From contig WFXF01000082.1 of NCBI GenBank assembly GCA_015490755.1, positions 1-64,000 of the forward strand: a stretch of 64,000 bases of DNA, written 5' to 3'. The notes under the pieces were generated by a model. That model worked only from the letters and a program-made list of their open reading frames with translations, was not told the origin of the DNA and made no database searches. This stretch comes from Gammaproteobacteria bacterium (GTDB lineage Bacteria > Pseudomonadota > Gammaproteobacteria > JAADGQ01). This document shows, in pieces, positions 2,781-64,000 of this stretch (within the stretch, counting starts at the first letter, position 1; each line of letters starts with the position of its first letter). Made by a program: the position numbers and the translations under genes.

Positions 2781-5471
2781 CTATTCAGTCGATTCTATTG
2801 GATCACGAACCAGACGTACAGAATATTTATCTGTTTTTTCACCTATTGAATTTGCTCCTTTTTCAAAAGCAATAAACCAGGCTTTATTTGTTCCATCTGG
2901 GTTTGCTGGATCAAGGTAAGGTGATGCTGTCCATATGTTTTGGTTTTGTGATGTGTTAGGAAAAACAGCTGTGTTGATCGCAGGACTATTGCATGTAAGG
3001 TCTGTGATCGAAGCCAGCTCTTTAATGTTTGGTAAGCGCCATTTTGTGTTGTTACCTTCGTTGAGATTTTTTGCATGTTGTAAAGCAGCTTCCCACGAGA
3101 GAGCATCGGCTGTGCCTGTTGTACACTGGTTATCGCTGAGTCCCTCAACACACTGTTTCCAGATCAGTCCAGTCTGGTTGTCCGTAACAGTGTTATTACT
3201 ATCATTTATAGTAAAGCGAAATCCTGATGCTGTATTTTCAGAGCAGGCCTGTTCTTGTGCCAGGTATGACCCTCGAACCAGCCGTACCATGCGGTTAGAG
3301 GTTTTAGGGGATGTTTCATCGTTGCTACCAAGCTCAAAGTTGATGCTCCATACTGTACCCTGATTTTTACTATCATCAGAGGAAGACCAGTAATTAAGAT
3401 TAAACGGATCTATATTTGGAAAAAAGGCAGTATCGACTGTTGCTTTATAAAGTGCCGGGCTGTAATTAACAATTGAGCGTAACTCTTCTCGTGTTGGAAG
3501 TCGCCAGTCACTGTATCCACAAAGAGTTGTGTCAGGAGTTTCCTGATCGTCATCATGGTCATAAGCAGTATTCGCGTTATCAATAAGTGAGTTTGCACCA
3601 TCAAATGTTGTAGGAATATAACTTTCAAGTGGTTTTTTTACTTCCCAGGTCAGGCCAGTAACCTGATCCTCAATGCATGACCATAATGCGTTAGAGTTCA
3701 AGTCGGTTGTGAATGCGTCTCCATATGAATCTAATTTTTTAAAGCTAAAGCCAGCAAGGCCATCAATATCTGTATTGATGAAAGTAAAGTCTCTGCCATG
3801 TCTGGCATCTTCCTCATCGATCAGGTTAGCAGTCACAGAGGTCGTAATTCCTGTGTCATTGAGTCGCACAAGATCATCATTGATGATTGTCGCAGTGGCA
3901 ATCTTTTCATCAGTGCTCAGTGTTGCATTTGTTGGGGCGGATAACGTGAGCTTGAACGTTTCATTGAGCTCAGTGATGCTGTCATTGATAAGATCAACAG
4001 TAATGTTTTGAGTGAGTGTGGTGGTATTGGCAGCGAATGTCAGCTTGCCATTTTTTGCAGTGTAATCTTCACCGGCAATGGCTGAAATATCAGTGGTACT
4101 GAAATCAACGGTGACAGCTTGGTCAGAGCCATTACTCAAAGAGACACTGAAAGTCATGGTGCCATCTTCCGGTGCACTGCTAACGGGTGCGATACTGATC
4201 ACGGGAGCATCATCATCGTTAGTAATTGTCGCGGTTGCTACTTTTTTATCAGTATCAAGCGTGGCGTTTGTTTCACCGGATAGCGTGAGATTAAATGTTT
4301 CATCGGCCTCGGTAATATTGTCATTGGTGAGATCAACGGTGATGTTTTGAGAGAGCGTGGTGGTGTTGGCGGCAAATGTCAGCTTGCCATTTTTTGCAGT
4401 GTAATCTTCACCGGCAATGGCTGAAATATCAGTGGTGCTGAAATCAACCGTGACAGCTTGGTCAGAGCCGTTACTTAAAGTGACACTGAAAGTCATCGTG
4501 CCATCTCCTTCTTTTGCACTGCTGTTCGTGGGTGCGATACTGATCACGGGAGCAGCATCATCGTTAGTAATTGTCGCGGTTGCTACTTTTTTATCAGTAT
4601 CAAGCGTGGCGTTTGTTTCACCGGATAGCGTGAGACTAAATGTTTCATCGGCCTCGGTAATGTTGTCATTGGTGAGATCAACGGTGATGCTTTGAGAGAG
4701 CGTGGTGGTGTTGGCGGCGAATGTCAGCTTGCCGTTGTTTGCGGTGTAATCTTCACCAGCAATGGCTGAAATATCAGCGGTACTGAAATCAATCGTGACA
4801 GCTTGGTCAGAGCCGTTACTTAAAGTGACACTGAAAGTCATCGTGCCATCTTCTTCTTTTGCACTGCTGTTCGTAGGTGCAATACTGATCACAGGAGCAG
4901 CATCATCATTAGTAATTGTGATAACCACTTCTGTCTGTTTGATCGTAGCGTCAGGACTATCGCTGCTTAGAATGATTGAAAATGTTTCATCTTTCTCAGT
5001 CAGATCGTCACTTTTGATAATAAGAGGAATGTTGAAGGTATGGTTTTTTTTGTTTGCTGGAAGGGTAAGATCACCCGAAGTTGCTGTGTAATCACTGCCT
5101 GATTTGGCGGTGCCATCTTTCGTTTCATAGTTCAGAGTGATTGCTTCATTGAGCGCTTTATCGAGTGTGATGGTGATTGCTACTGTTGTGGAGTCTGTAC
5201 CATCTTTTTTTTGCGCCGCATCTTCTACGATTGAAACAGCTTTGTTATCTATATCAATATTTGCTGGTGAGGTATCAATTGATTCACTGACACTACATGC
5301 TGTAGTACCAAAAATAATCAGTGCGGCTGCAAGCAATTCTTTAAGGCAGTCAGTTTTTCTGCATTGTTTTTGATGGGGGTTGGATGGATTTTTTTTAATC
5401 ACAGTAAAATCACTCCTGTTTAATTTAAAATTGGTGGAAGTAATTGCTGGGTGGCAAAAGGTGGTAAGCAT
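2781..5471 (-). CDS. Lipoprotein with four Calx-beta repeats and C-terminal DUF1566 (Lcl-type) domains
   Basis: Lipobox-like LIIFGTTACS; repeated DYTANNGKLTFAANTTTLSQSITVDLTNDNITEADETFSLTLSG; C-terminal VTGLTWEVK...YSDWRLPTREEL...YWSSS and TGLIWKQC...KWRLPNIKEL...IWTASPY motifs. The true start may be downstream of the given ATG. Confidence 0.85.
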   Translation of the reverse strand: MLTTFCHPAITSTNFKLNRSDFTVIKKNPSNPHQKQCRKTDCLKELLAAALIIFGTTACSVSESIDTSPANIDIDNKAVSIVEDAAQKKDGTDSTTVAITITLDKALNEAITLNYETKDGTAKSGSDYTATSGDLTLPANKKNHTFNIPLIIKSDDLTEKDETFSIILSSDSPDATIKQTEVVITITNDDAAPVISIAPTNSSAKEEDGTMTFSVTLSNGSDQAVTIDFSTADISAIAGEDYTANNGKLTFAANTTTLSQSITVDLTNDNITEADETFSLTLSGETNATLDTDKKVATATITNDDAAPVISIAPTNSSAKEGDGTMTFSVTLSNGSDQAVTVDFSTTDISAIAGEDYTAKNGKLTFAANTTTLSQNITVDLTNDNITEADETFNLTLSGETNATLDTDKKVATATITNDDDAPVISIAPVSSAPEDGTMTFSVSLSNGSDQAVTVDFSTTDISAIAGEDYTAKNGKLTFAANTTTLTQNITVDLINDSITELNETFKLTLSAPTNATLSTDEKIATATIINDDLVRLNDTGITTSVTANLIDEEDARHGRDFTFINTDIDGLAGFSFKKLDSYGDAFTTDLNSNALWSCIEDQVTGLTWEVKKPLESYIPTTFDGANSLIDNANTAYDHDDDQETPDTTLCGYSDWRLPTREELRSIVNYSPALYKATVDTAFFPNIDPFNLNYWSSSDDSKNQGTVWSINFELGSNDETSPKTSNRMVRLVRGSYLAQEQACSENTASGFRFTINDSNNTVTDNQTGLIWKQCVEGLSDNQCTTGTADALSWEAALQHAKNLNEGNNTKWRLPNIKELASITDLTCNSPAINTAVFPNTSQNQNIWTASPYLDPANPDGTNKAWFIAFEKGANSIGEKTDKYSVRLVRDPIESTE
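3890..4900 (-). repeat. Tandem coding repeats of about 339-345 bp (Calx-beta units)
   Basis: Near-identical blocks such as gtgtaatcttcacc(g/a)gcaatggctgaaatatcag(t/c)ggt(a/g)ctgaaatcaa recur near 4061, 4400 and 4745. Confidence 0.9.
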
Positions 5472-5809: not shown

Positions 5810-6592
5810 ATGATGAGGCAATTAAAAGTTAAAACTTTTGCTGCGCAGTGTGCGTTAGTTGTAGGTATGATGGGTGCTGTAAATGTAGCGGTTGGGGCGG
5901 TCTCGTCTTCACGGGCTGTTATTGATTGGAGTAGCTTGAGCTGGACTGCAACAAATGGTGCTACGTTAATCTGGACTGGATCTGATGATTATGTTTCAGC
6001 AGAGTATTGGAATGCAGGTGTATCGACTGATTTTAATAGCGCCGGTCCTGCCTCTAATCCTGTGGTGAGTGCTAGTAGTGTTGGCAGCGGTGGTAGCGGG
6101 GCTGCGTATGCTTTCGGTTTGACAACAGATAGTCTTGTAAGGTCGGGTGCATTTACAGGCGACCCTGGTGAGGAAACTCAGGGTGCGGCGGATCGTTATA
6201 ATGATTTTTTGGTCGATGGTGCTGGTGGTATCGGTAATACTGATATAACTTTTACAGTTAACTATGTAATGGTAGCGGATGTAACCAGTGGTATCGGCGA
6301 GTCAAACTCTATGGTTGGGTTCGAGTTGTTTAATAATTTCATCGGTGGGGGTGTTTATGATGATGATTTTGTTTCGCAGATTGGTACTGGTACGACTGGT
6401 AACGTTTACGGCTCATTTTCACTGACTGAAACATTCTTTAATGGTGAAACCGGTTACATTTACGGTGGTACCAGTTCGTATGCTTTTGAAAACAATTTGC
6501 CACCAGCTGGTGTGCCTGAGCCTGGTGTGCTTCCACTGTTAGGTATTGGTTTGCTGGGTTTGTGGGGGGCATCACGTCGCCGCACTGCGTAG
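5810..6592 (+). CDS. PEP-CTERM sorting domain-containing secreted protein
   Basis: N-terminal signal peptide; C-terminus VPEPGVLPLLGIGLLGLWGASRRRTA is a canonical PEP-CTERM signal. Confidence 0.92.
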   Translation: MMRQLKVKTFAAQCALVVGMMGAVNVAVGAVSSSRAVIDWSSLSWTATNGATLIWTGSDDYVSAEYWNAGVSTDFNSAGPASNPVVSASSVGSGGSGAAYAFGLTTDSLVRSGAFTGDPGEETQGAADRYNDFLVDGAGGIGNTDITFTVNYVMVADVTSGIGESNSMVGFELFNNFIGGGVYDDDFVSQIGTGTTGNVYGSFSLTETFFNGETGYIYGGTSSYAFENNLPPAGVPEPGVLPLLGIGLLGLWGASRRRTA

Positions 6593-30427: not shown

Positions 30428-31369
30428 ATGGGGTTTACTGTAAAGCGTGTAATGATGGTTCTATTGCCAACGTTGTTGTGTTCATACCCTGCTTTTCCGG
30501 ATTTTCCCCGCCCATTAAATTTTCAGCCCGATGGTAATACTGGAATGCCAGGGAATTGTGGTGTGGGTGGCGGTTTTGGTGATATGTGTGATTCTGGTGC
30601 AGCTGAGCCGGATGATACCCCTTTTTTTCAAGACCTTGTGATGGTGGATGGTGTGCAGTATTGGCATCAGATTATTGGTGATCCTGCTGCAGGTTTTGCT
30701 TATGAAATTTATGTTGAAAGCGCAGGAGGAAGTTACTCCAGTAGCGGTGGAAAACCATCGGCTTATCGTCTAAGTAACTATGAGCAGCAGAGTGGTAACG
30801 GATTTGATCCGTTAGGGCGAAACCCGGAAAATGGTGTTGAATTTACGGGTAATGGTACGGGTGATCCAACAAAAGTTGTAATGCGTCAGGTCATGGGTGG
30901 TGAGTGGGATGAAAAAAATCGTACCTGGAGCTGTGGTGATGCTGGTTTTTGTTATGAATTTATCAAGGCTGATCTGAAACTAAAACCCAAAATCACACAA
31001 GTTATCAATGATAGTGCCCAATATATACAAAGCTTTTTTGAACTGGATATGAGCAATAGTAATTATGATGATGATACGCTGGCTGGTGAAATTATAAATA
31101 TCATGAAAATTACTGATCCTGATATGCCTTTGGAGAGTCCAGAGTCAAGCTATTTTGATATGGCCGTTGATAGTCAGGAGGGGCGCTCCAATGTGACAGG
31201 GGGGCGCTATATTTATACCCCCGGAGCTGGTTGGGTTGACCGAGGTGATGGTGGTACCGGTAAAGATTTTACGACATGGAAATATGAAGCGGGAACATAT
31301 CAGTATGTGGGCCAAACGGAAAGCCCGCTTAAAAATATATGGGAAATTGTAGAAGGCCCTATTGAATAA
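30428..31369 (+). CDS. Uncharacterised secreted protein, paralog of the 51-55 kb family
   Basis: Signal peptide; shared motifs TPFFQ, YWHQIIGDPAAGFA, SGNGFDPLGRNP, EFTGNGTGDPTKVVMRQVMGGEW, LKPKITQ, ITDPDMP, NVTGGRYIYT. Confidence 0.85.
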   Translation: MGFTVKRVMMVLLPTLLCSYPAFPDFPRPLNFQPDGNTGMPGNCGVGGGFGDMCDSGAAEPDDTPFFQDLVMVDGVQYWHQIIGDPAAGFAYEIYVESAGGSYSSSGGKPSAYRLSNYEQQSGNGFDPLGRNPENGVEFTGNGTGDPTKVVMRQVMGGEWDEKNRTWSCGDAGFCYEFIKADLKLKPKITQVINDSAQYIQSFFELDMSNSNYDDDTLAGEIINIMKITDPDMPLESPESSYFDMAVDSQEGRSNVTGGRYIYTPGAGWVDRGDGGTGKDFTTWKYEAGTYQYVGQTESPLKNIWEIVEGPIE

Positions 31370-31495: not shown

Positions 31496-33553
31496 GTGAT
31501 GGGGAACAAATTAATACTGAGTGCCTTTGTGGCATTGATGACGGTGGTTATTGCCGGTTGTGCGCAACAGACAAAGCAAGTTGGTGTGACTTCGGCCAAT
31601 AAACAGGTTGATGTTGAAAAGTTATTTATTGTGGATTGTTTGTTGCCGGGGCAGGTGCGTAAGTTAGGTGGAAAGATGACTTATTTGACACCACGCCGTC
31701 CGATTAAAACTTCAGCGATTGATTGTGAGATTCGTGGCGGAGAGTATGTTGCCTATGATCGCTCTGATTATCGCACAGCTCTAAAGGTTTGGCTTGATGG
31801 CGCCAAGGCAGGAGATCCGGAAGCGCAAACTAATGTAGGTGAAATTTACGAAAAGGGCTTGGGAATTCAGCCTGATTATGAATTAGCTTATGTCTGGTAT
31901 AAAAAAGCGGCAGAACAAAATTATTCCAGTGCCCAAATTAATTTGGGTTATATGTATGAAAAAGGTTTGGGAGTTGAAAAGGATGTTGCGAAAGCATTGA
32001 ACTGGTACCGCAAAGCATCAGGTCTGACGGATGATGATCTGGAGTTTTCTTCAACTATTGAAGTTGCAGTGGCCTCCCAGGTAGAGCAGGAGACCCAGAA
32101 GTTAAGAGAAGAGATTGAGCGTCGAAAACAAGAGGTACAATTGCTTCGTCAGCAATTGAATAAAACGGAGCAAGAATTAAAATCACGCAAGACAGCTTTA
32201 AGTATGGCAGAGAATAAAGTTGTTAGCCTAAATAAACAGTTAAAGTCTTTAAGTACAAAAGGAGCCAAAGATAAGCTAAAAGCTGTGAAGCAGGATTTAG
32301 CAGCAGAGGAGGCGAAAATTATAACTCAGCAAAAGGAGTTAGCCTGGCTGGAGAGCGAATTGAAACAGCAAAAGTCGGGGCTGATAAAAGAGTTGGAATC
32401 AGTCAAGGTTCAAGAAGAGCGGTTGAGTGAAAATCAAGAAAATGAACTGGCAGGGCCTATTATAGAGCTGCTTGACCCACCTGTCGTGGTGACTCGAGGT
32501 ATTCCTAGCGTGAGGTTACGTACGCCGGTGAAAGAGCGTTTAATTGTGGGTAAAGTGACTGCCCCAGCTGGAATTCTTGCGATTACAGTGAATGATCAGC
32601 CTCAAAAGCTGGCAAAAAATAATGTCTTTAAAACAAATATCGAGATTGAAAAGAGAGATACACCTGTTTCAGTGGTTGCGGTTGATAAACAAGGCAGACG
32701 GACAACCGTTGATTTTATGTTTGTGCCTAAATTTCGTAATGCACCTGCAACGATAGCCAGGCCTCTGGAAAAAGCTCAATCACGGCGTGTTAGCTCAATT
32801 GATTTTGGCTCTTATTATGCTTTGATTATTGGTAATAACCGATATCCGCAAATGCCTGATTTGGCAACGGCTGTATCAGATGCTGAGCGTGCTGAAAAAG
32901 TATTGCGAGATCAATATGGGTTTAAAACCAGTTTGTTAGTGAATGCAACACGCTACGATATTTTGTCTGAATTAAACAGGTTGCGTGAGCAGTTAACGGA
33001 TAAAGATAACTTGCTAATCTATTATGCAGGTCATGGTGAGATTGACCGGATTAATATGCAAGGCTATTGGTTGCCTGTCGATGCAGAGCCGAATAGTACG
33101 GCAAACTGGATCTCCAATGTATCAATTACCGAGCAGTTAAATGCAATGAAAGCCAAGCATGTTATGGTGGTAGCAGATTCTTGTTATTCAGGTTTACTAA
33201 CACGTTCATCCCTTGCACGATTAGATGTTGACCTGACTGATGAAGTTCGTCGCAAATGGATGAATGTGATGGCTAAAACACGTTCGAGAACAGTATTGAC
33301 ATCCGGTGGGGTCAAACCTGTCATGGATAGTGGTGGAGGCAACCATTCTATTTTTGCGGAAGCATTTTTTGATGCTTTGGAGTCGAATACGAATATACTG
33401 GAAGGTTATAAAATATATCGCGATGTTGCGAATAAAGTACAGGCAAGCGCAGCAAAATTCAGTGTTGAGCAAACGCCTCAATACGCCCCCATTCGTCACG
33501 GTGGACATGAGTCAGGTGAGTTTCTTTTTGTACCTGTAAACTATAAATTATAG
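31496..33553 (+). CDS. Caspase-like (peptidase C14) lipoprotein with Sel1 repeats and coiled coil
   Basis: Lipobox VIAGCAQQ; Sel1 repeats AQTNVGEIYEKGLGIQPDYELAYVWYKKAAEQ; caspase fold YYALIIGNNRYPQMPDLATAVSDAERAEKVL, YYAGHGE (His), DSCYSG (Cys). Confidence 0.92.
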   Translation: MMGNKLILSAFVALMTVVIAGCAQQTKQVGVTSANKQVDVEKLFIVDCLLPGQVRKLGGKMTYLTPRRPIKTSAIDCEIRGGEYVAYDRSDYRTALKVWLDGAKAGDPEAQTNVGEIYEKGLGIQPDYELAYVWYKKAAEQNYSSAQINLGYMYEKGLGVEKDVAKALNWYRKASGLTDDDLEFSSTIEVAVASQVEQETQKLREEIERRKQEVQLLRQQLNKTEQELKSRKTALSMAENKVVSLNKQLKSLSTKGAKDKLKAVKQDLAAEEAKIITQQKELAWLESELKQQKSGLIKELESVKVQEERLSENQENELAGPIIELLDPPVVVTRGIPSVRLRTPVKERLIVGKVTAPAGILAITVNDQPQKLAKNNVFKTNIEIEKRDTPVSVVAVDKQGRRTTVDFMFVPKFRNAPATIARPLEKAQSRRVSSIDFGSYYALIIGNNRYPQMPDLATAVSDAERAEKVLRDQYGFKTSLLVNATRYDILSELNRLREQLTDKDNLLIYYAGHGEIDRINMQGYWLPVDAEPNSTANWISNVSITEQLNAMKAKHVMVVADSCYSGLLTRSSLARLDVDLTDEVRRKWMNVMAKTRSRTVLTSGGVKPVMDSGGGNHSIFAEAFFDALESNTNILEGYKIYRDVANKVQASAAKFSVEQTPQYAPIRHGGHESGEFLFVPVNYKL

Positions 33554-51133: not shown

Positions 51134-52276
51134 TCAGCAGCCAGGGATTAAACCGTTCGCACACTTGCTTTCTATGCCTGCGATATTAGAGTTTTGTGAA
51201 GGATCCCAGTATACATCCCATTCATAGCTCATTATATCGGCGGCCCCTCCATCAACATAACTGTATGAGCCTTCCTGGTAGTCCCATGTATTGATATCAC
51301 GATCTTGCCAGCAGTGTTCAATACCCTCTATTGTTGTTTGTGAATTACTGCATTGAGTATAGGTATAGCGTCCACCTGTGATGTTAGGGGTGAAGTTAGA
51401 TGATCCTGATGCGGGATGGCTGATTGTGATTGTACTGTCAATCATCTGAAAGTCCCCCGCTGTGGGGTCAAAGTCAGGCATGTCAGGGTCGGTGATGGTT
51501 AGTGTGTTGATGATGCTTCCAGTGGTTGTATCATCACTATAGGTGATTGAGCTCATATCCAGAACAAAGTTTTGAACCATGTCGGACTCATTAATTTTCT
51601 GAGTAATTTTTGGCTTGAAAAGAAATTGATCTTTTAGGAACTCTGAGCAATATTGATCTGAATTGTCACAACTCCAGGTTTGTGTTGTTGAGTTCCAGGT
51701 GCCTCCCATTATTTGCCGCATAATGACTTTAGTGGGGTCAGCGGTACCATTGCCAGTGTAGTCAAAATCTCGAGAAGGGTTAATACCAAGAGGATCCCAG
51801 CCGTTTCCACTTTGGTCTTCTAATGTGACTGAACCCCAACTCATTATTCTGGAGGGTCTGCCACCACTTGTAGACTCATAAGAAAAAATGCGCGGGATAT
51901 AGCTTTCCATCGCAAATCCTGTGCTTGGGTCACCAACAATCATATGCCAATATCTTTCAAAGGTAACGGGATCAGTGTATGTGCCTTGAAAAAATGGTGT
52001 GGTATCAGGGTCTGATTCAGCAGTATAAGCAATGGGGGATATACCACAGTCACCCAGAAGGTAGGTAGGTACGTTACTCATATTGCATGCCCCAGGGTAA
52101 AAATAACTATTATTTGATCCTAGATTGAAGTTTAAGGTCATTTCACCCAGCGCGTACTCTGGGATTAACAGAAGAAGCAATGGTAAGGTTTTGAGCAGTA
52201 ATTGAGTGACAGCGTTCTTTTTTTTATTCAAGGCAGGTACAAACATCAGTTCCTTGCTTTGAGTTAAAAGTTTCAT
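51134..52276 (-). CDS. Uncharacterised secreted protein, tandem paralog A
   Basis: MTLNFN...TPFFQGTYTDPVTFERYWHMIVGDPSTGFAMESY...SGNGWDPLGINPSRDFDYTGNGTADPTKVIMRQIMGGTW...; C-terminal CANGLIPGC. Confidence 0.88.
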   Translation of the reverse strand: MKLLTQSKELMFVPALNKKKNAVTQLLLKTLPLLLLLIPEYALGEMTLNFNLGSNNSYFYPGACNMSNVPTYLLGDCGISPIAYTAESDPDTTPFFQGTYTDPVTFERYWHMIVGDPSTGFAMESYIPRIFSYESTSGGRPSRIMSWGSVTLEDQSGNGWDPLGINPSRDFDYTGNGTADPTKVIMRQIMGGTWNSTTQTWSCDNSDQYCSEFLKDQFLFKPKITQKINESDMVQNFVLDMSSITYSDDTTTGSIINTLTITDPDMPDFDPTAGDFQMIDSTITISHPASGSSNFTPNITGGRYTYTQCSNSQTTIEGIEHCWQDRDINTWDYQEGSYSYVDGGAADIMSYEWDVYWDPSQNSNIAGIESKCANGLIPGC

Positions 52277-52388
52277 AAAACAGCCCGCCTGTCTAAATAA
52301 TCTCTCAGGACGTAATCTACAGTGATGGTTCTGTTGAACTCGTTTATTTATTTATCGGCTGTTCAGTGAAAAGCTAACAGCTGAAAGA

Positions 52389-53549
52389 TCAACAACTATT
52401 CGCACCTAAACCATTCAAACACTTACTTTCATTGCCTGCAATACCTCCGTTTTGTGAAGGATCCCAGTATACATCCCATTCATAATTCATAACATCGGCA
52501 GCACCCCCATCAACGTAACTGTAAGTGCCTTCCTCATAATCCCAGTTAATAAAATCCTGAGCAGTGTTATCCCAGCCGGTTGTTTGCCAGCAGTGTTCTA
52601 CACCAGAAGAATTTTGTAGACTACTGCACTGTGTATAGGTGTAGCGTCCACCGGTAACGTTGGTGTTGATGCTGGATGATCCTGAATCAGGGCGACTGAT
52701 TGTGATCAATCCATCAATCATCTGAAAATCGCCTGCGGTGGGGGCAAAATCAGGCATGTCGGGGTCGGTAATGGTGAGTGTATTGATGATGCTACCCGCC
52801 GTTGTATCATCACTATAGGAGATTGTACTCATGTCCATAACAAAGTTTTGAACCATGTCGGACTCATTAATTTTCTGAGTAATTTTTGGCTTGAAAAGAA
52901 ATTGATCTTTTAGGAATTCCGAGCAATATCCATCTGTAGTATTGCAGCTCCAGTCGCCTGTAACAGAGTCCCAGGTACCGCCCATGACTTGTCGCATGAT
53001 TACTTTTGTGGGGTCGGCGGTCGCATTGCCTGTGTAATCAAAACCTCGAGAAGGGTCAATTCCAAGAGGGTCCCAGCCATTACCACTAAAAACTTCCAGT
53101 GGTGTGCTCCAACCCATTATTCTGGAAGGTTTGCCACCGCTTGTTGATTCGTAGGCGTTTACTCTGGGAATATAACTCTCCATAGCAAACCCGGTGCTTG
53201 GATCACCAACAATTGTGTGCCAGTATGATGCTGATGTATCAGGATCAGTATATGTACCATGAAAGAAGCGGGTATTGTCAAGATCCGGTACAGTCATCAT
53301 GGAGCCTATGCTACACATGCTGGAGCCGACGGCAGAGCCTGGAGCATTGCTCATATCGCAGGCTCCTGGAGCAAAGCTATTGTTATGTGGTCCGACATTA
53401 AAGTTTAGAGTCATTCCTGTGGATGCGTATGCTGAGCCAAACAGAAAGAGTAAGGGTAAAGTTTTAAATAATCGAGCGACAATATTCTCTATTTTACTCA
53501 AGGCAAGCACAAACTGCAGTCCTTCACTCTGAGTTAAAATTTTCATAAA
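52389..53549 (-). CDS. Uncharacterised secreted protein, tandem paralog B
   Basis: Same motifs as paralog A; C-terminal CLNGLGANSC. Start assigned to the internal MKILTQSE. Confidence 0.88.
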   Translation of the reverse strand, partial: FMKILTQSEGLQFVLALSKIENIVARLFKTLPLLFLFGSAYASTGMTLNFNVGPHNNSFAPGACDMSNAPGSAVGSSMCSIGSMMTVPDLDNTRFFHGTYTDPDTSASYWHTIVGDPSTGFAMESYIPRVNAYESTSGGKPSRIMGWSTPLEVFSGNGWDPLGIDPSRGFDYTGNATADPTKVIMRQVMGGTWDSVTGDWSCNTTDGYCSEFLKDQFLFKPKITQKINESDMVQNFVMDMSTISYSDDTTAGSIINTLTITDPDMPDFAPTAGDFQMIDGLITISRPDSGSSSINTNVTGGRYTYTQCSSLQNSSGVEHCWQTTGWDNTAQDFINWDYEEGTYSYVDGGAADVMNYEWDVYWDPSQNGGIAGNESKCLNGLGANSC

Positions 53550-53655
53550 ACAGCCCACCTATACAAATAATATTAAGGGTATATCATCCCTCGCGATGGC
53601 TTATTTAAGCTCGCTTATATATTATCTATCGGCTGCCTAATGAAAACCTGAAAAT

Positions 53656-54792
53656 TCAGCAACTGCCAGCTAAACTATTTGCACACTTGCTTTCGTTGCC
53701 TGAAATACCCCCGTTTTGTGATGGAATAAAATAAACATCCCAGTCATAATTAAGAACGTCTGCATCTCCTTCTATGTAACTGTATGTTCCTACTTGGTAA
53801 TCCCAATTATTAATATCATTATCTTGCCAGCAGTGTTCAATACCTTTTGAGAGTTGTGGGTCGTTACATTGGCTGTAAGTATAACGACCACCTGTAATGT
53901 TAGGGTTGAGTATTGATGCATCTGAATCAGGCATGCTGATTTCAATGCTATCGTTGTCCATTTTAAAATCACCCGCTTTGGGGTCAAATTCAGGCATGTC
54001 ATCATCAATAATGACAACAGTATTGGTTAGTTCACCTGTGGTTGAATCATCATCATATTTGATAGTGCTCATATCCAAAGAAAATTTATGAACAAAGTCG
54101 GGTTCATTGATCTGTTGTGTAATGATTGGCTTGAAAAGAAAGTTGCTTTTCAGGAACTCTGAGCAATATTCATCACTGTCCTGACAGCTCCAGGTGTTTG
54201 TGGTTGAATTCCATGATCCCCCCATCACTTGTCGCATAATTGTTTTTGTCGGATCGCCTGTCGCATTGCCGGTGTAATCAAAATTTCTGGATGGATCCAG
54301 CCCTAATGGATCCCAGCCATTGCCGCTTCGAGTCTCTAGCGATTCAGTTCCGCGCTGGAATATTTTGGAGGGTTTGCCACCACTTGTTGATTCATAGCTA
54401 TTGATCACGGGGGTGTAACTCTCCATAGCAAACCCCGTGGCAGGATCACCGACAATAATGTGCCAATAACTTATTTGAGTATCGGGATCAGTATAGGTGC
54501 CTTGGAAAAAGGGGGTTTTATCGGGGTCTGGTTCATCTTCAAATTCGGTGGGGGAGATTCCGCAGGCATTATCAGCAACCGGGGCATCGCTCATATTGCA
54601 TGCGCCAGGGTAAAAGCTGTTATTACCGGGGCCAGCGTTAAAATTTAAAGTCATATTGGTAGCAGACCAGGCGCCGTCTGACCCTAATAAAAACAGTAAT
54701 GGCAAGGCTTTGAATGATTGAGTGATAAGTTCCTTTTTTTCACTCACAGCAAATGCACGCAATTGTGCTTTGCTCTGAGCTGAAAACTTCAT
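53656..54792 (-). CDS. Uncharacterised secreted protein, tandem paralog C
   Basis: Same motifs as A and B; C-terminal CANSLAGSC. Confidence 0.88.
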   Translation of the reverse strand: MKFSAQSKAQLRAFAVSEKKELITQSFKALPLLFLLGSDGAWSATNMTLNFNAGPGNNSFYPGACNMSDAPVADNACGISPTEFEDEPDPDKTPFFQGTYTDPDTQISYWHIIVGDPATGFAMESYTPVINSYESTSGGKPSKIFQRGTESLETRSGNGWDPLGLDPSRNFDYTGNATGDPTKTIMRQVMGGSWNSTTNTWSCQDSDEYCSEFLKSNFLFKPIITQQINEPDFVHKFSLDMSTIKYDDDSTTGELTNTVVIIDDDMPEFDPKAGDFKMDNDSIEISMPDSDASILNPNITGGRYTYSQCNDPQLSKGIEHCWQDNDINNWDYQVGTYSYIEGDADVLNYDWDVYFIPSQNGGISGNESKCANSLAGSC

Positions 54793-55142
54793 AAAAACAA
54801 CCTGTCTGTATGTTTAGTTTAGAATAATTATTGTCTTGGAATATTAATGTTGCTCTTGAGGTGGTTCTTGCATATATAACGAAACGAACCCGATTTATAG
54901 TTATTTTATCTGTTTATCGGTTATGCAATAAAAAACTTTAGAGTTCATTTGATGTGTAATTAAAAAATAATTGACAAGTCATTAAAGAAAAACTCATTAT
55001 GGTCGTTATTATGTCTGCTTGATCGTAATTTCAGGTGCTAACGAAAGGTTTGTTGTGTAATTGGTTGCGTTGAAGCAAAATAATAAAAATAAATATCGAG
55101 AATTGTGGCGCTGTATCGATTTTTATTGACGGATTAACTTTC

Positions 55143-55185
55143 TGACAAGGCTGTCTCTCATTGCTGTTAATAGAGGGGCCTCATT
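55143..55185 (+). promoter_or_regulatory. Conserved leader of FG-GAP gene 1
   Basis: TGACAAGGCTGTCTCTCATT...AGAGGGGCCTCATT resembles the leader of gene 2 at 58192-58223. Confidence 0.5.
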
Positions 55186-57999
55186 ATGAAATCGCGCAAG
55201 CATTTCTATTATTCACGTTTATTTTCAAGTCTGTTTATTCTTTCATCGGGAGCCGCCATTGGTGCAGTTCCTGTCTCTTCGCAAAGTAAGCTTATTGCTG
55301 ATGATGCCTTCAGTGGTTCTGCACATGGCTGGGTAGTCTCTTCTGATGGTGATACAGCTGTTGTTTCCGCTTTTGCAGATTATGATGGCCTGGGAGCTGC
55401 TTATGTTTATGAGCGCACTGCTTCAGGCTGGCAGCAAGTCTCAAAGCTAACGGCTTCGGATGGTTCTGGTCCTGCCAATGGTGAGCCAGGTGATTCATTG
55501 GGTATGGGGGCATCAATCAGCGGAAATACGATTGTTCTGGGTGCGCCTTTAAATGATCATTCCGGTGGAACTGATTCCGGAGGGGTCTATGTTTATGTTA
55601 AGCCAGCCGGTGGTTGGCCCGCCGCGATGACTGAAACGGTCAAGTTGACGGCACCGGGTGGTGGTGCAGAAAAAGCTTTTGGAGGTTCGGTCTCAATTAA
55701 AGGTAATACGCTGGTTGTGGGAGCAACAGGAAAAAAGAACGCTCCCGATTCGGGTGAAGTATTTGTGTATGACGGTTCAGGTGCAAGCTGGAGTCATAAA
55801 GCGACATTGAGTGGTTCAGGCCTACAGGGAAGTGATCGGTTTGGTGCGATCGTGGATACTGATGGTGACACTATAGTTGTTGGTGCGTTTGGAACGAGAG
55901 TGCTCCAAGGTAGTGTCTATGTTTACAACAAACCGGCTTCAGGCTGGGTCAATGCCAGCCATGATGCTTTATTGGTGGCAAGCGATGCAGCTAACAATGA
56001 TTTTTTTGGTGGCAGTGTTGCTGTTGATGGTAATACGATACTGGTTGGTGCGAATGGTAATGATGATGCAGGCTCCAAATCTGGTTCAGCCTACCTGTTC
56101 ACACGCTCAGGCGGTAGCTGGGTAGAGCAAAGCAAAATTACTGCTTCAGATGCACAATCTGAAGATAATTTTGGTTATGCTGTAGATATTGCAGGTGATA
56201 CTGCGGTGGTGGGTGCCTCTAGTTTTGAAAGTACTGGGGCCGAGGCGATCTACCTGTTTACACGATCAGGAGATAGCTGGATAGAGCAAGGCCGATTGAA
56301 CCACCCCGATGGACAAACGGACAGCAAGTTTGGTCTCAGTGTCGCGGTTGATGGTAGTGAAAGTTTTATCATGGCTGGGGCGATGCGAGCAAATGCGGGT
56401 CCTGATCGAGTTCAAAGAACGGCAGGCGCAGCTTATCTGTTTGAACTGGAAGCTCAGAATAAAGCGCCTGTTGCTGTGAATGACAGTGTCAGTACCGATT
56501 ACAATACGGCAGTAACTACTGGTAATGTATTGGCAAATGATACGGATGCCGATGGTGATAGTTTAAGTATCAAAAGTGCTGATGGTATGTCAGTTGAAGG
56601 TGGTACAGTCGTTAATAATGGTGACGGTACATTCACTTATACTCCAAAAGTTGGTTTCAGTGGTAACGATAGTTTCAACTACACTGTCAGTGATGGTAAT
56701 GGTGGTGAAGCGCAGGGAACCGTTGACATTGTAGTCAATGCTGCTGTGAATAAAGTACCCATAGCAGTCAATGACAGTGTCAGTACCGATGAGGATACAG
56801 CAGTTACTACAGGCAATGTTCTGGCGAACGACACCGATGCTGATGGAGATACATTAAGCGTCAGCTCTGCAGATAGTTCTTCAGTAGAAGGCGGCACAGT
56901 TGTCAACAATGGCGATGGTACATTCACCTACACACCCAAATCCGGCTTTAGCGGCAGCGACAGTTTCAACTATGTTGTCAGTGACGGTAACGGTGGTGAA
57001 GCGACAGGCACGGTGACCATCACAGTCAATAACGTCAACAAAGTTCCAGTAGCAGTCAATGACAGTGTCAGTACCGATGAGGACACAGCAGTGACTACAG
57101 GTAATGTTCTGGCGAACGACACCGATGCAGATGGTGATACTTTAAGAATCATTTCAGCTAATAGCACGTCAGCTATGGGTGGTATGGTGCTTGATAATGG
57201 TGATGGAACATTTACCTATACACCAAAAACTGGCTTTTATGGCGTAGATAGCTTTACTTATATAGTTGGCGATGGCAACGGTGGTGAAGCACAGGGTACC
57301 GTTACCATTACTGTTAAACAGGCTGTTGTAATTAATCAACCACCTGTTGCAATGGATGATAGCGTCACAACCGATCAAGGTGTTGTAGTTACAACCGGCA
57401 ATGTTTTAGCCAATGATAGTGATCCTGATGGCGATACGCTAAGTATAGAAAGTGCAGATAGTCAGTCAGCTGAGGGAGGTGCTGTTGTTAACAATGGAGA
57501 TGGTACTTTTACTTATACACCAAAAACTGGCTTTTATGGCAGTGATGGTTTTAACTACATCGTAATGGATGGAAAAGGTGGAAATGCTCAAGGTACAGTG
57601 AAAATTACTGTGAAACGTACTGAACCAAGTAATACACCACCCGTGGCAGAAGATGATTTTGCATGGTCTTGGCTATTTATTGATGAAGGCTTAACGACGA
57701 TCGATTATGTGCTTGAGAATGATGTTGATGCTGATGGTGATACACTCAGGATTAACAGCGTAGATAGTACATCGGTTGAAGGTGGTGTCGTGATTGATCA
57801 TGGAGATGGTACTTTTACATATACGCCTCCCGCAGAATTTACCGGGGAAGATCGTTTTAATTACACTGTAAGTGATGGCAATGGTGGTGAAGATAAAGGA
57901 GAAGTCACTGTTTGGGTAGGTTCCATAGGGGTATGGGGTGCATTCACTCTGTTATCACTATTTGGATATCGCCGTTATCAACAAAAAAAAGAGGGGTAA
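55186..57999 (+). CDS. Secreted FG-GAP repeat protein with cadherin/VCBS-like tandem repeats and C-terminal TM anchor
   Basis: FG-GAP pattern DAFSGSAHGWVVSSDGDTAVVSAFADYDGLGAAYVYER; repeats AVNDSVSTDEDTAVTTGNVLANDTDADGDTLSV...GTFTYTPKSGFSGSDSFNY; tail GSIGVWGAFTLLSLFGYRRYQQKKEG. Confidence 0.9.
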   Translation: MKSRKHFYYSRLFSSLFILSSGAAIGAVPVSSQSKLIADDAFSGSAHGWVVSSDGDTAVVSAFADYDGLGAAYVYERTASGWQQVSKLTASDGSGPANGEPGDSLGMGASISGNTIVLGAPLNDHSGGTDSGGVYVYVKPAGGWPAAMTETVKLTAPGGGAEKAFGGSVSIKGNTLVVGATGKKNAPDSGEVFVYDGSGASWSHKATLSGSGLQGSDRFGAIVDTDGDTIVVGAFGTRVLQGSVYVYNKPASGWVNASHDALLVASDAANNDFFGGSVAVDGNTILVGANGNDDAGSKSGSAYLFTRSGGSWVEQSKITASDAQSEDNFGYAVDIAGDTAVVGASSFESTGAEAIYLFTRSGDSWIEQGRLNHPDGQTDSKFGLSVAVDGSESFIMAGAMRANAGPDRVQRTAGAAYLFELEAQNKAPVAVNDSVSTDYNTAVTTGNVLANDTDADGDSLSIKSADGMSVEGGTVVNNGDGTFTYTPKVGFSGNDSFNYTVSDGNGGEAQGTVDIVVNAAVNKVPIAVNDSVSTDEDTAVTTGNVLANDTDADGDTLSVSSADSSSVEGGTVVNNGDGTFTYTPKSGFSGSDSFNYVVSDGNGGEATGTVTITVNNVNKVPVAVNDSVSTDEDTAVTTGNVLANDTDADGDTLRIISANSTSAMGGMVLDNGDGTFTYTPKTGFYGVDSFTYIVGDGNGGEAQGTVTITVKQAVVINQPPVAMDDSVTTDQGVVVTTGNVLANDSDPDGDTLSIESADSQSAEGGAVVNNGDGTFTYTPKTGFYGSDGFNYIVMDGKGGNAQGTVKITVKRTEPSNTPPVAEDDFAWSWLFIDEGLTTIDYVLENDVDADGDTLRINSVDSTSVEGGVVIDHGDGTFTYTPPAEFTGEDRFNYTVSDGNGGEDKGEVTVWVGSIGVWGAFTLLSLFGYRRYQQKKEG
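56461..57930 (+). repeat. Five tandem coding repeats of about 290-300 bp (cadherin/VCBS-like)
   Basis: Units begin near 56461, 56752, 57040, 57337 and 57631; units 2 and 3 are nearly identical over long DNA stretches. Confidence 0.85.
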
Positions 58000-59612: not shown

Positions 59613-59819
59613 GTTGCAAATAAGGTGAGTATTGGTTTTTAGTAAGCTGTTTTTTCAAAAAAACCAATGCTCATGCAAATGATGGGAATAGCTATTCTCT
59701 AAAAGTTGTGTCACTATAAATTTTTCTTTATTTTACATAAATATAATTTATTTTGAAGGCAATAGTCGGGTATGCCGATGAAGCACATAGCTATTTTATT
59801 GTTTGAGGAGCACAGAGTT

Positions 59820-60437
59820 ATGAAAAAAGCGACACTATTATTTGTAACATTATTTTTTGGAGTAAGTGGCAATGCCGTCGCAGCTGATGACGGTGCAATA
59901 AAGAGAGGTTCAGCAAAAGCATTCTACTGTACCAGCTGTCACGGCTACAATGGCATGGGAACAGCTACAAATTCAGAGTTGGCTGGCAGAAGCAGTAGTG
60001 AGCTTGAAAAGAGACTCTTGGCGGCTAAAAAAGGGAAATCATCCATAAAAAAGACATTGCTGAACAGGTTTTCTGACTCAGATATTCAGGAGATTGCTGC
60101 CTATTTTGGTTCGCTGAAAAAAACGGCTCGGGGTGAAGTGAGCTACATAAGGGATATTGAGCCGATTATCCATAACCGTTGTGTTGAGTGCCACAGTAGC
60201 GAAGGTGAAGGTAAGCATGTGAGCGGTCTGGATCTGAGAAATTATGATGGGTTGATGAAAGGTACGAGCCAGGAGGCGGGTAAAATGATTACACCCGGCT
60301 CCTCTATCGGCAGTTCTCTTATGGTGATGTTAACTCGTAAGGATTATTTGCGAATGCCTTTTGGTCAATCTCCTTTGGCTGATGATGAAATTCGTATCAT
60401 CGGTAGCTGGATTGATCAAGGAGCCAAGAATAACTAA
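59820..60437 (+). CDS. Diheme c-type cytochrome
   Basis: Signal peptide MKKATLLFVTLFFGVSGNAVAA; CTSCHGYNGMG and CVECHSSEGEG; second half resembles PSCyt1-type domains (LDLRNYDGLMKG...IIGSWIDQGAKN). Confidence 0.88.
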   Translation: MKKATLLFVTLFFGVSGNAVAADDGAIKRGSAKAFYCTSCHGYNGMGTATNSELAGRSSSELEKRLLAAKKGKSSIKKTLLNRFSDSDIQEIAAYFGSLKKTARGEVSYIRDIEPIIHNRCVECHSSEGEGKHVSGLDLRNYDGLMKGTSQEAGKMITPGSSIGSSLMVMLTRKDYLRMPFGQSPLADDEIRIIGSWIDQGAKNN

Positions 60438-60446
60438 ATATTTTTT

Positions 60447-60472
60447 TGAAGGGGGCATCAGCTCCCTTCAAT
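60447..60472 (+). terminator. Hairpin after the diheme cytochrome gene
   Basis: TTGAAGGGGGCATCAGCTCCCTTCAA followed by TTT. Confidence 0.65.
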
Positions 60473-60572
60473 TTCTATTGTCACTCCCACTTTTTTGACT
60501 ATTTAGTAACTGGACGCTGATTCCAGATGGTCGTCTGCGTTTTATTAAAACTATAGGTAATAAGCTCTCTCT

Positions 60573-61349
60573 ATGACTCACTCTCGTTTTTCGCTTCATT
60601 TTTCACACTTGCCATTGGTGCAAAAAACGCTTTACACATGTGTATTATGTGTTTTGGGTGTGGGCTATTTATTTGCCATGATCTATGTTTTTGCATCACA
60701 TCACGGGCGTGATGGCGATGATGCGCTATCAGTACAAGATATTATCATTGCTTACAGCGGTTCCAGTAGTGGTACTAAACTGGAGTCTGCTTTGAGAGGG
60801 CCGATGTCGGGCATGCTGGCTGCTGATGAGAATATCAGGATTATAGATTGGGTAGGTCAGGGTGCGAATAAAGAGGCGTTTGAATCTGAGATAAAAACGA
60901 TTTTCGAGAACCGTTGCATCACTTGTCACAATAGTCGCAATCCACACCTGCCAAGCCTGGAAAGCTACGATGAAGTTAAGCTCGTCATCGAAGAAGATCA
61001 CGGTATGAACCTATTTACTTTGGTGCGTGTTTCTCATATTCATCTGTTTGGTTTGACATTTATTTTTTTTCTTATGGGTGTTATTTTTCTTCATACCTAC
61101 CTGCGTAAAGAGTGGTTGAAGATTGTGATCGTTGCGACTCCTTTTGTGGCGATTATTCTTGATATTGCCTCATGGTATATGACTAAGGTTTATGAGCCAT
61201 TTGCCTGGGTTGTGATCGGCAGTGGTGCTCTCATGGGTCTTAGTTTTGCGGTGCAATTTTTTCTATCCATATACCAGATGTGGTTCTACAAGTTACCACA
61301 AGAGGTTGAACAAACTTTTTACTGTAGTGTGATAGAAAAGTCGCCATGA
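60573..61349 (+). CDS. Membrane protein with one periplasmic c-type heme motif
   Basis: N-terminal TM, CITCHNSRNPHLPSLESYDEV, then multiple TMs with membrane His residues (VSHIHLFGLTFIFFLMGVIFLHTYL). Confidence 0.8.
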   Translation: MTHSRFSLHFSHLPLVQKTLYTCVLCVLGVGYLFAMIYVFASHHGRDGDDALSVQDIIIAYSGSSSGTKLESALRGPMSGMLAADENIRIIDWVGQGANKEAFESEIKTIFENRCITCHNSRNPHLPSLESYDEVKLVIEEDHGMNLFTLVRVSHIHLFGLTFIFFLMGVIFLHTYLRKEWLKIVIVATPFVAIILDIASWYMTKVYEPFAWVVIGSGALMGLSFAVQFFLSIYQMWFYKLPQEVEQTFYCSVIEKSP

Positions 61350-63079
61350 AATATCTAGGCATACTGCTGTCTGTTTTCATCCTTAGTGGTTGTGAATTGG
61401 GTGAAACAGCAGATAATAACGCCCTTGAAATAGTGCAGACTGATCCGATGCTCAAGATGGTTGGCGTGGGTGATGCGGTGAAGGGGCGTGTTGTTGCAGA
61501 TCAGTGTGTTGCTTGCCACGGTCTGAACGGTGTCAGGGCACGTAGTGGTTCACCTTTTATTGCAGGAATGGAGCAGGGCTACCTTGTTCGCTCGTTACTT
61601 GCATATCGAGATGGTACACGTAACCACAGCGCCATGAAGGAGGTTAGTGATACTCTCACTCCTTTACAGTTAGCCGATGTTACTGCTTATTATGCTGGTC
61701 TGGAAACCGTCTGGCGCGGTGCAGTTGTGAGCCGTAAATCACGGAATATGGTTAAGAGTAAGCGGGCACATGCTGGTGACTCTATTGCTCAGGGCTGTCG
61801 CTCCTGTCATAGCCAAACAGCCCGTTATCAAAAAGATGAAGCAATTCCTTCACTCGATGGAATGCCATTGGAATATTTCAAGCCTGCTCTTAAAAGTTAC
61901 CTGAATGGTCAGCGTAACAATGAAATTATGAAACTTTTCAAAGGGCGTTTGAGTGAGCAGGATATTTACGATATTGGAATATATTATGCTGCTCGCAAGC
62001 CAAAGAAGGCCGAACCGCCGAGTAGTGGAGATGCTGCTCGCGGTAAGTTTTCTGCTCGGGCCTGTGCTGGTTGCCATGGTTATAATGGCAATAGCCTCAA
62101 CCCACACATCCCTAATCTGGCAGGCCAGTCACAACGATACTTGATAAAGGCGATACGTGATTACCGTGACGGCAAGCGCAGTGATCTGTTAATGCGTGAG
62201 CCGGTAAAAAATCTCAGCAATACAACCATTGTTAATATTGCTGCTTACTATGCTAGGCAACAGCCTGTTTCTCCACTGCACCGGAGTAGTGCGTCCACAA
62301 CCTTTGATCCCATAACTGATGGCGCTCGTCTTGCCGCTGCTTGTAATAGTTGCCACGGTAAAAATGGAAACAGTGTTAAAGATGGTGTGCCACATCTTGC
62401 TGGAATGAATGTCAAGTACTTTACAGCTGCTACGAAAGCGTACCAGACTGGGCAACGCAGACACTCTGCCATGCAAAAAATAGTAGCCTTCTACAGTGAT
62501 ACTGACATTGAAAAGATGGCCTACTACTACGCTATACAGTCGCCCCAACAGGTTGTTAGCGGTGGCGATAGCCTTGATGAAGTAAATGAAATAGCAAACA
62601 GAGCTTGTGGTGACTGTCACGGTGAGAGGGGAGTTAGCCCTAATCCTGCTACAGTACCGAGCCTGGCAGGGCAGCAGGTTGATTATCTGATCAGCGCTAC
62701 TCACGCTTATGCTAAAGGTTTGCGCCACAATGAAAGTATGAAATTGATTGCTGAAAAGCTCAATGCAGATGAGTTAAAACAAATTGCGATCTACTTTGCT
62801 AAACAATCAGCGCCACAGGTGGATACCCAGTTACCCGATAACCCGGCCCGTATTGTCGAAGAGCGCTGTAATCGCTGTCATGGAGAGAGAGGGTACAGTA
62901 CTGAGCTTGGTGTGCCACGTTTGGCTGGACAGGTGGAGTCCTACTTAGTAGTGGCGATGAAGGAGTATCAGGAGGGGGTGCGTAAAAACACAGTCATGTA
63001 TGCTATGACGGAGACACTGAGTCTACTCGAAATAAAAGCGATTGCAGCCTATTATGCTGAGCAACAGTCAGCCCCGTAG
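61346..63079 (+). CDS. Six-CXXCH cytochrome c lipoprotein (tandem c4/c553-like domains)
   Basis: Lipobox LSGCELG; CVACHG, CRSCHS, CAGCHG, CNSCHG, CGDCHG, CNRCHG at about 95-residue intervals. Confidence 0.93.
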   Translation: MKYLGILLSVFILSGCELGETADNNALEIVQTDPMLKMVGVGDAVKGRVVADQCVACHGLNGVRARSGSPFIAGMEQGYLVRSLLAYRDGTRNHSAMKEVSDTLTPLQLADVTAYYAGLETVWRGAVVSRKSRNMVKSKRAHAGDSIAQGCRSCHSQTARYQKDEAIPSLDGMPLEYFKPALKSYLNGQRNNEIMKLFKGRLSEQDIYDIGIYYAARKPKKAEPPSSGDAARGKFSARACAGCHGYNGNSLNPHIPNLAGQSQRYLIKAIRDYRDGKRSDLLMREPVKNLSNTTIVNIAAYYARQQPVSPLHRSSASTTFDPITDGARLAAACNSCHGKNGNSVKDGVPHLAGMNVKYFTAATKAYQTGQRRHSAMQKIVAFYSDTDIEKMAYYYAIQSPQQVVSGGDSLDEVNEIANRACGDCHGERGVSPNPATVPSLAGQQVDYLISATHAYAKGLRHNESMKLIAEKLNADELKQIAIYFAKQSAPQVDTQLPDNPARIVEERCNRCHGERGYSTELGVPRLAGQVESYLVVAMKEYQEGVRKNTVMYAMTETLSLLEIKAIAAYYAEQQSAP

Positions 63080-63157
63080 GGAGATATAAACTATAAAATA
63101 CTGAGTCATAGTAAACCAATGGATTCGTTATGATTCATCACAATTGCTTTTTTCAGT

Positions 63158-64000
63158 TTAGCGGCCAGCCCAACCCCAAGAAGCAAACCATGCCCAAAGA
63201 GACCACCAGTCGGGGCGACCCACAGAGTCTCCTTCACAAGCAGCATTCGCTTCAGCGCTACCAAACACACTATTAATCTGAATATTTCCTACGTCACCGG
63301 AACCACAATCGGCAATAATATTATTGTCGCTCCATGATTCAATACTGCACTCTTCAGATCTCTCCATATTAACGATATTGGTGCCTGAATTTTCTACATT
63401 CAAATGGTTGATAAAACCACTACCATTGATAACAACTTTACCGCTGTTACAACTAATATCACTGATAATTACATCAGGCCTTATAACCAGGTTAACCATA
63501 GGACTTTTACGACTCTTTTTGACCAAATGAACATCATAACTGCTCGGAGCTAAATCTTCGGGCAGGGTGAATTCAAGTGTAGTTGGTGTTGAGGCTGTGG
63601 GTTCATACTCAAAAGATAGACCCTCTTTATTGGTTAGAACCAGTTTCGCGATTATTTCTTCATCTCCGACTATGCTGATAAATCCTGAGCCGCTGAAAAA
63701 AAGTGTTCTTGAGCCTGTCGACTGAGTTGCAGCAATGCTTCTGATATTACGTGCGTGATTTTCCTCTACTCCGATGCGATCAATAGTAGGGGTTACATTA
63801 GTTGGGGGGGCGTCGCCAAAAGCACCAATAGGTATTCCTCCTTCTACCTGCCAATTGATATGGCAGCCATTGCAGTTCATGGCGTTACCAATGTGCCCCA
63901 TAAATGGCTCTTCACTGCCGGGCGATATACCATCACCTTCTGCATCAAACTCAATAGTGTGTAGAGAGATGGCACCATGACATTTTTGACAGGCACGAAT
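63158..64000 (-). CDS. Secreted multiheme c-type cytochrome (5' end beyond window) with IPT/beta-sandwich-like region
   Basis: The frame stays open to the edge: IRACQKCHGAISLHTIEFDAEGDGISPGSEEPFMGHIGNAMNCNGCHINWQ..., giving CQKCH and CNGCH. The track ORF (to 63901) is truncated. Confidence 0.85.
   Translation of the reverse strand: MRACQKCHGAISLHTIEFDAEGDGISPGSEEPFMGHIGNAMNCNGCHINWQVEGGIPIGAFGDAPPTNVTPTIDRIGVEENHARNIRSIAATQSTGSRTLFFSGSGFISIVGDEEIIAKLVLTNKEGLSFEYEPTASTPTTLEFTLPEDLAPSSYDVHLVKKSRKSPMVNLVIRPDVIISDISCNSGKVVINGSGFINHLNVENSGTNIVNMERSEECSIESWSDNNIIADCGSGDVGNIQINSVFGSAEANAACEGDSVGRPDWWSLWAWFASWGWAGR

Follow-up and report, generated by a model that had tools for sequence, protein, structure and literature searches.

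Three similar genes stand in tandem in the genome of a marine gammaproteobacterium (Gammaproteobacteria bacterium, GCA_015490755.1), and a fourth lies apart from them. What family do they encode, and what might its proteins do? All four genes lie in the window, that is, the whole 64,000-nt stretch of contig WFXF01000082.1 that was analysed (Table 1).

Table 1. Family members and neighbouring features in the window
Feature	Position	Strand	Length	Remarks
Family member p4	30428..31369	+	313 aa	Signal-like N-terminus short, ordinary; without Cys tail
Caspase-like (Peptidase_C14) gene	31496..33553	+		Sel1 repeats, coiled coil, lipoprotein-like N-terminus; downstream of p4
Family member p1	51134..52276	-	380 aa	C-terminal Cys pair KCANGLIPGC
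Family member p2	52389..53558	-	389 aa	Length from GTG 53558
Family member p3	53656..54792	-	378 aa	
Intergenic region	54793..55185		393 nt	Between divergent starts of p3 and propeller gene 55186
Candidate partner (gene 55186)	55186..57999	+	937 aa	FG-GAP_2 / Big_9 / tandem-95 surface protein with GlyGly-CTERM tail

The array genes and the reach of their family

In end-to-end alignments, p2, p3, and p4 are 71, 63, and 43% identical to p1, respectively. About 100 columns of the four-protein alignment are invariant, and the motifs quoted in the original prediction, which are real, fall within them. That prediction had also placed a fourth, shorter member without a Cys tail at 30428, and p4 is indeed such a gene. 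A search of the genome adds a distant fifth copy (G000:C13:13437-14063). The near-identical genome HyVt-476 carries orthologs of all three array genes, L006:3382-4524 for p1 (97%), L006:2077-3273 for p2, and L006:870-2006 for p3, while a further genome, G001, carries orthologs of two array genes and one of p4 (L045:2708-3649, 86%). In a tree of 107 family members, p1, p2, and p3 each pair with their own HyVt-476 ortholog, and p2 and p3 each group with a G001 ortholog as well. Thus, the duplication of p2 and p3 predates the split of these species.

The mature parts of all four proteins are under purifying selection, confirming that p1 to p4 are real genes. Relative to HyVt-476, dN/dS is about 0.06, 0.06, and 0.19 for p1, p2, and p3, with dN of about 0.005-0.014, dS of about 0.07-0.13, and most changes at third codon positions; p4 compared with G001 gives a dN of 0.06, a dS of 0.88, and a dN/dS of about 0.07. 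Spurious or decaying ORFs are hardly credible given this selection, the orthologs in related genomes, and 107 homologs with conserved residues, even though purifying selection is not visible in the N-terminal extension of p1 to p3, which offers few sites. The start of p1 to p3 is probably right, since the three genes and their orthologs share it and a similar block lies just 5' of each ATG. For p2, the conserved ATG at 53546 (385 aa) is more likely than the GTG at 53558. A promoter common to the array was sought and rejected, because consensus matches were no better than those of shuffled sequences.

The array had been described as an uncharacterised family that a clear match to a characterised one would overturn. 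Scans of 60 members against Pfam, NCBIfam, and PHROGs gave nothing above chance, PADLOC matched no member, and a sequence-profile search of the PDB found no match at E values up to 10. A literature search, through sources available to us in part, returned nothing evidently on the family; papers on rhombosortase sorting came up. There are no relatives in IMG/VR or among plasmids, so an origin from a virus, phage, or plasmid is rejected. The named matches are gammaproteobacterial MAGs. A sample of 369 genomes from the class yields family matches in 22, including every genome of two GTDB families (11/11 and 8/8, 19/19 together); among 399 genomes drawn across the phylum, the window's own was the sole positive. 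Five copies are present in this genome, and a relative from its genus has up to about seven, estimated from 8 matching pieces. Judged from its sequences, this is an undescribed, paralog-rich family of certain gammaproteobacterial lineages. As a check for methanotrophy, pmoA was searched for; it gave no match, and the control likewise matched nowhere. In genome G038, four tandem members adjoin metG (L059 5658-11844), three of them with long, low-complexity, Thr/Ser-rich tails.

Export, gene neighbours, and sorting tails

The family proteins are acidic (median pI 4.5) and hydrophilic (GRAVY -0.44) and have Sec-type N-termini. They are probably exported, and the 'secreted' of the original prediction has this same support from predicted signal-like N-termini. 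The unusually long N-terminal extension that it ascribed to all members is found in p1 to p3, where about 28 residues precede the hydrophobic segment, but not in p4. The C-terminal Cys pair, likewise, is present in p1 but marks one sub-branch rather than the family, other members having Gly-rich, Thr/Ser-rich, or no tails. A check of the C-termini found a sorting tail of the GlyGly-CTERM type (Gly-rich, hydrophobic, basic) on no member. RTX arrays typical of type I substrates are absent (20 scattered GGxGxD matches among 107 proteins). An outer-membrane barrel is unlikely for such acidic, hydrophilic proteins, few of which end in an aromatic residue, and a cytochrome link was rejected, CxxCH occurring in no full-length member and once in a 98-aa fragment.

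No neighbour is common to all members. Recurrent ones are metG and mrp/apbC, and most members are not coupled to a giant gene, with metG, mrp, and other housekeeping genes common beside them. A single ancestral mrp-metG locus is one possible origin: four GTDB families have members at this location, yet those members are not one clade. Adjacent genes in general show no enrichment for signal-like N-termini.

The picture is different for members with a tightly spaced gene downstream. When a limit of 50 nt, picked after the data were seen, is applied, the tight same-strand downstream gene encodes at least 1000 residues for 7 of 9 family members versus 2 of 279 other genes at the same loci (Fisher p = 4e-11, a test that ignores ancestry). 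The gaps in these seven cases (L012, L046, L052, L072, L074, L078, and L183) range from -43 to 46 nt. L012 is closely related to L052, and the L046 partner is related as well, leaving about five independent cases. By Pfam, the tight partners contain FG-GAP/Calx-beta (L012, L046), FG-GAP (L183), SBBP with CARDB or DUF11 (L074), or NHL with Big_9 (L078) domains; those of L072 (a TPS adhesin domain) and L045 (a 193-aa ORF) are not propellers. Looser neighbours contain PD40 (L066, L179, L184), FG-GAP/LVIVD/Calx-beta (L081, L167), or fn3 (L079) domains, and in places the partner type tracks the family clade, as with PD40 for L066/L179/L184 and FG-GAP/LVIVD for L081/L167. A looser test, which takes all large, acidic, secreted neighbours and merges homologs, gives a weak excess (6 of 11 clusters versus 2.7 expected, P = 0.027). 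The linkage of tightly coupled family members to giant extracellular proteins, most of them beta-propeller proteins, is new here. In one sub-clade, secreted-looking proteins of about 415 aa with similar C-terminal ends and no Pfam match lie directly downstream of family members (L083 9408-10649, L187 12348-13601); they may be a second undescribed partner.

Several partners have C-terminal tails that are Gly-rich, hydrophobic, and basic, a composition that recalls the GlyGly-CTERM/rhombosortase sorting system (TIGR03501/TIGR03902; PMC3237569 and PMC6219818, as far as these were available to us). Scanned alone, the tail of the protein encoded by gene 55186 reaches 16.0 bits, where the TIGR03501 cut-off is 15.5; the other partner tails tested all fall below the curated cut-off. 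The divergent layout of p3 and gene 55186 is the same in HyVt-476 (L006:1-870). Of the family-positive genomes, 21 of 22 encode rhombosortase, versus 9 of 22 family-negative ones (p = 2e-4, ignoring lineage). All family-positive genomes have the type II secretin GspD, but so do most negative ones.

Elsewhere in the window, a 260-aa protein (5810-6592, +) has a clear PEP-CTERM tail, and so this genome may use exosortase-type sorting alongside rhombosortase. An acidic, secreted-looking 896-aa protein (2781-5471, -) contains four Calx-beta and two Lcl_C domains. Genes for c-type cytochromes cluster at 59772-64000, and one of the cytochromes has six CxxCH motifs.

The genomic linkage to giant propeller-type surface proteins points to the family proteins as their probable partners at the cell surface. 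We hold, tentatively and at somewhat under an even chance, that they are exported partners of sorted propeller-type surface proteins, located outside the inner membrane. From this linkage and the co-occurrence with rhombosortase, both read from genome sequences, we infer a physical partnership. In such a scheme, an acidic, single-domain, all-beta protein would cross the inner membrane by means of its predicted Sec-type N-terminus and would then act as a binding, assembly, or co-secretion subunit of a giant, C-terminally sorted propeller protein, possibly using the type II secretion system. The protein that the array serves here would probably be the divergent FG-GAP/tandem-95 GlyGly-CTERM protein encoded by gene 55186, with p1 to p3 as variants of one module.

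Structure, conserved residues, and other readings

A confident AlphaFold2 model of mature p1 (pLDDT 89.3, pTM 0.88) is nearly all beta and forms one compact domain. Foldseek comparison of this model with the PDB and BFVD gave no match at E <= 0.001 (best E values 0.27 and 0.13). A second, weaker model, of a shorter member, is hairpin-rich (pLDDT 79) and likewise unmatched. Several of the stray, low-scoring matches are meander barrels (the TbpB C-lobe, OspA, nitrobindin, and fluorescent proteins), which are compatible with a predicted series of hairpins and assign no fold. These hairpin-rich models and scattered matches, together with the fact that most copies stand alone, could be explained by a protein that acts on its own, binding or scavenging a ligand in a beta-meander (lipocalin-like) pocket without involvement of the surface proteins and with incidental gene neighbours. 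Lacking a confident match to such a fold and leaving the operon bias unexplained, this explanation is a possible but somewhat unlikely one.

Across the 107 members, two lysines, K215 and K221, are invariant (107/107), and H111, E124, Q226, and D240 are conserved at 93-97%; P181 and M241 also belong to the set at 92-98%. One predicted hairpin of the p1 model carries both H111 and E124. Conservation of this kind suggests that the Lys, His, Glu, Asp, and Gln residues may form a functional site. They might be the active site of a secreted enzyme that acts on an extracellular glycan or peptide, the paralogs differing in substrate, and some low-scoring fold matches are to polysaccharide lyases and fucosidases. 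However, no enzyme family or fold was matched at a meaningful score, and we regard an enzyme as unlikely. Rather improbable is the proposal of a new fold, new with respect to the PDB and BFVD that were compared, in which the two lysines with the Glu, Asp, Gln, and His would make up a functional centre dedicated to building or anchoring giant propeller surface proteins; this centre might be a self-made covalent cross-link or an attachment site.

The original prediction noted the caspase-like gene beside p4. The two genes do adjoin, and the caspase-like product has a weak PADLOC caspase match, but the linkage is found in the window and G001, within this genus only; a general caspase link is therefore rejected, and the neighbour says nothing general about family function. 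A module for antagonism or defence (toxin, immunity, or anti-phage), with the tandem paralogs forming a varied repertoire and the caspase-like protein acting as effector, is very improbable for the same reason, as well as for the lack of PADLOC matches and of viral or plasmid relatives, the lineage-wide presence in two GTDB families, and the conservation of the array among species.

Significance and comparison with known systems

Unannotated, lineage-wide, and paralog-rich, with a confident model unmatched in the PDB and operons that tie it to giant propeller/GlyGly-CTERM surface proteins, this family offers a concrete candidate accessory subunit for those proteins. If this is true, several genes per family-bearing genome could lose the label 'hypothetical protein', and surface display of the giant proteins would become testable.

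The family resembles three known groups in part. Like the beta-meander barrels (the TbpB C-lobe, OspA, nitrobindin, and lipocalin-like proteins), its models consist of a series of antiparallel hairpins; the resemblance is in strand order only, since no probability among those fold matches exceeds 0.25 and none is confident. Like the FG-GAP/SBBP/PD40 propeller surface proteins, to which they are genomically linked, family members are acidic beta proteins, predicted to be extracellular. Unlike them, they have no propeller repeat (FG-GAP, SBBP, PD40, or NHL) by Pfam, and p1 is modelled as one compact domain. The GlyGly-CTERM/rhombosortase system differs in that family members have no GlyGly-CTERM tail of their own, and its definition, in the portions of the source papers available to us, includes no accessory protein of this kind. 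Nevertheless, this system co-occurs with the family in 21 of 22 genomes, and the protein encoded by gene 55186 and several coupled partners carry GlyGly-type tails.
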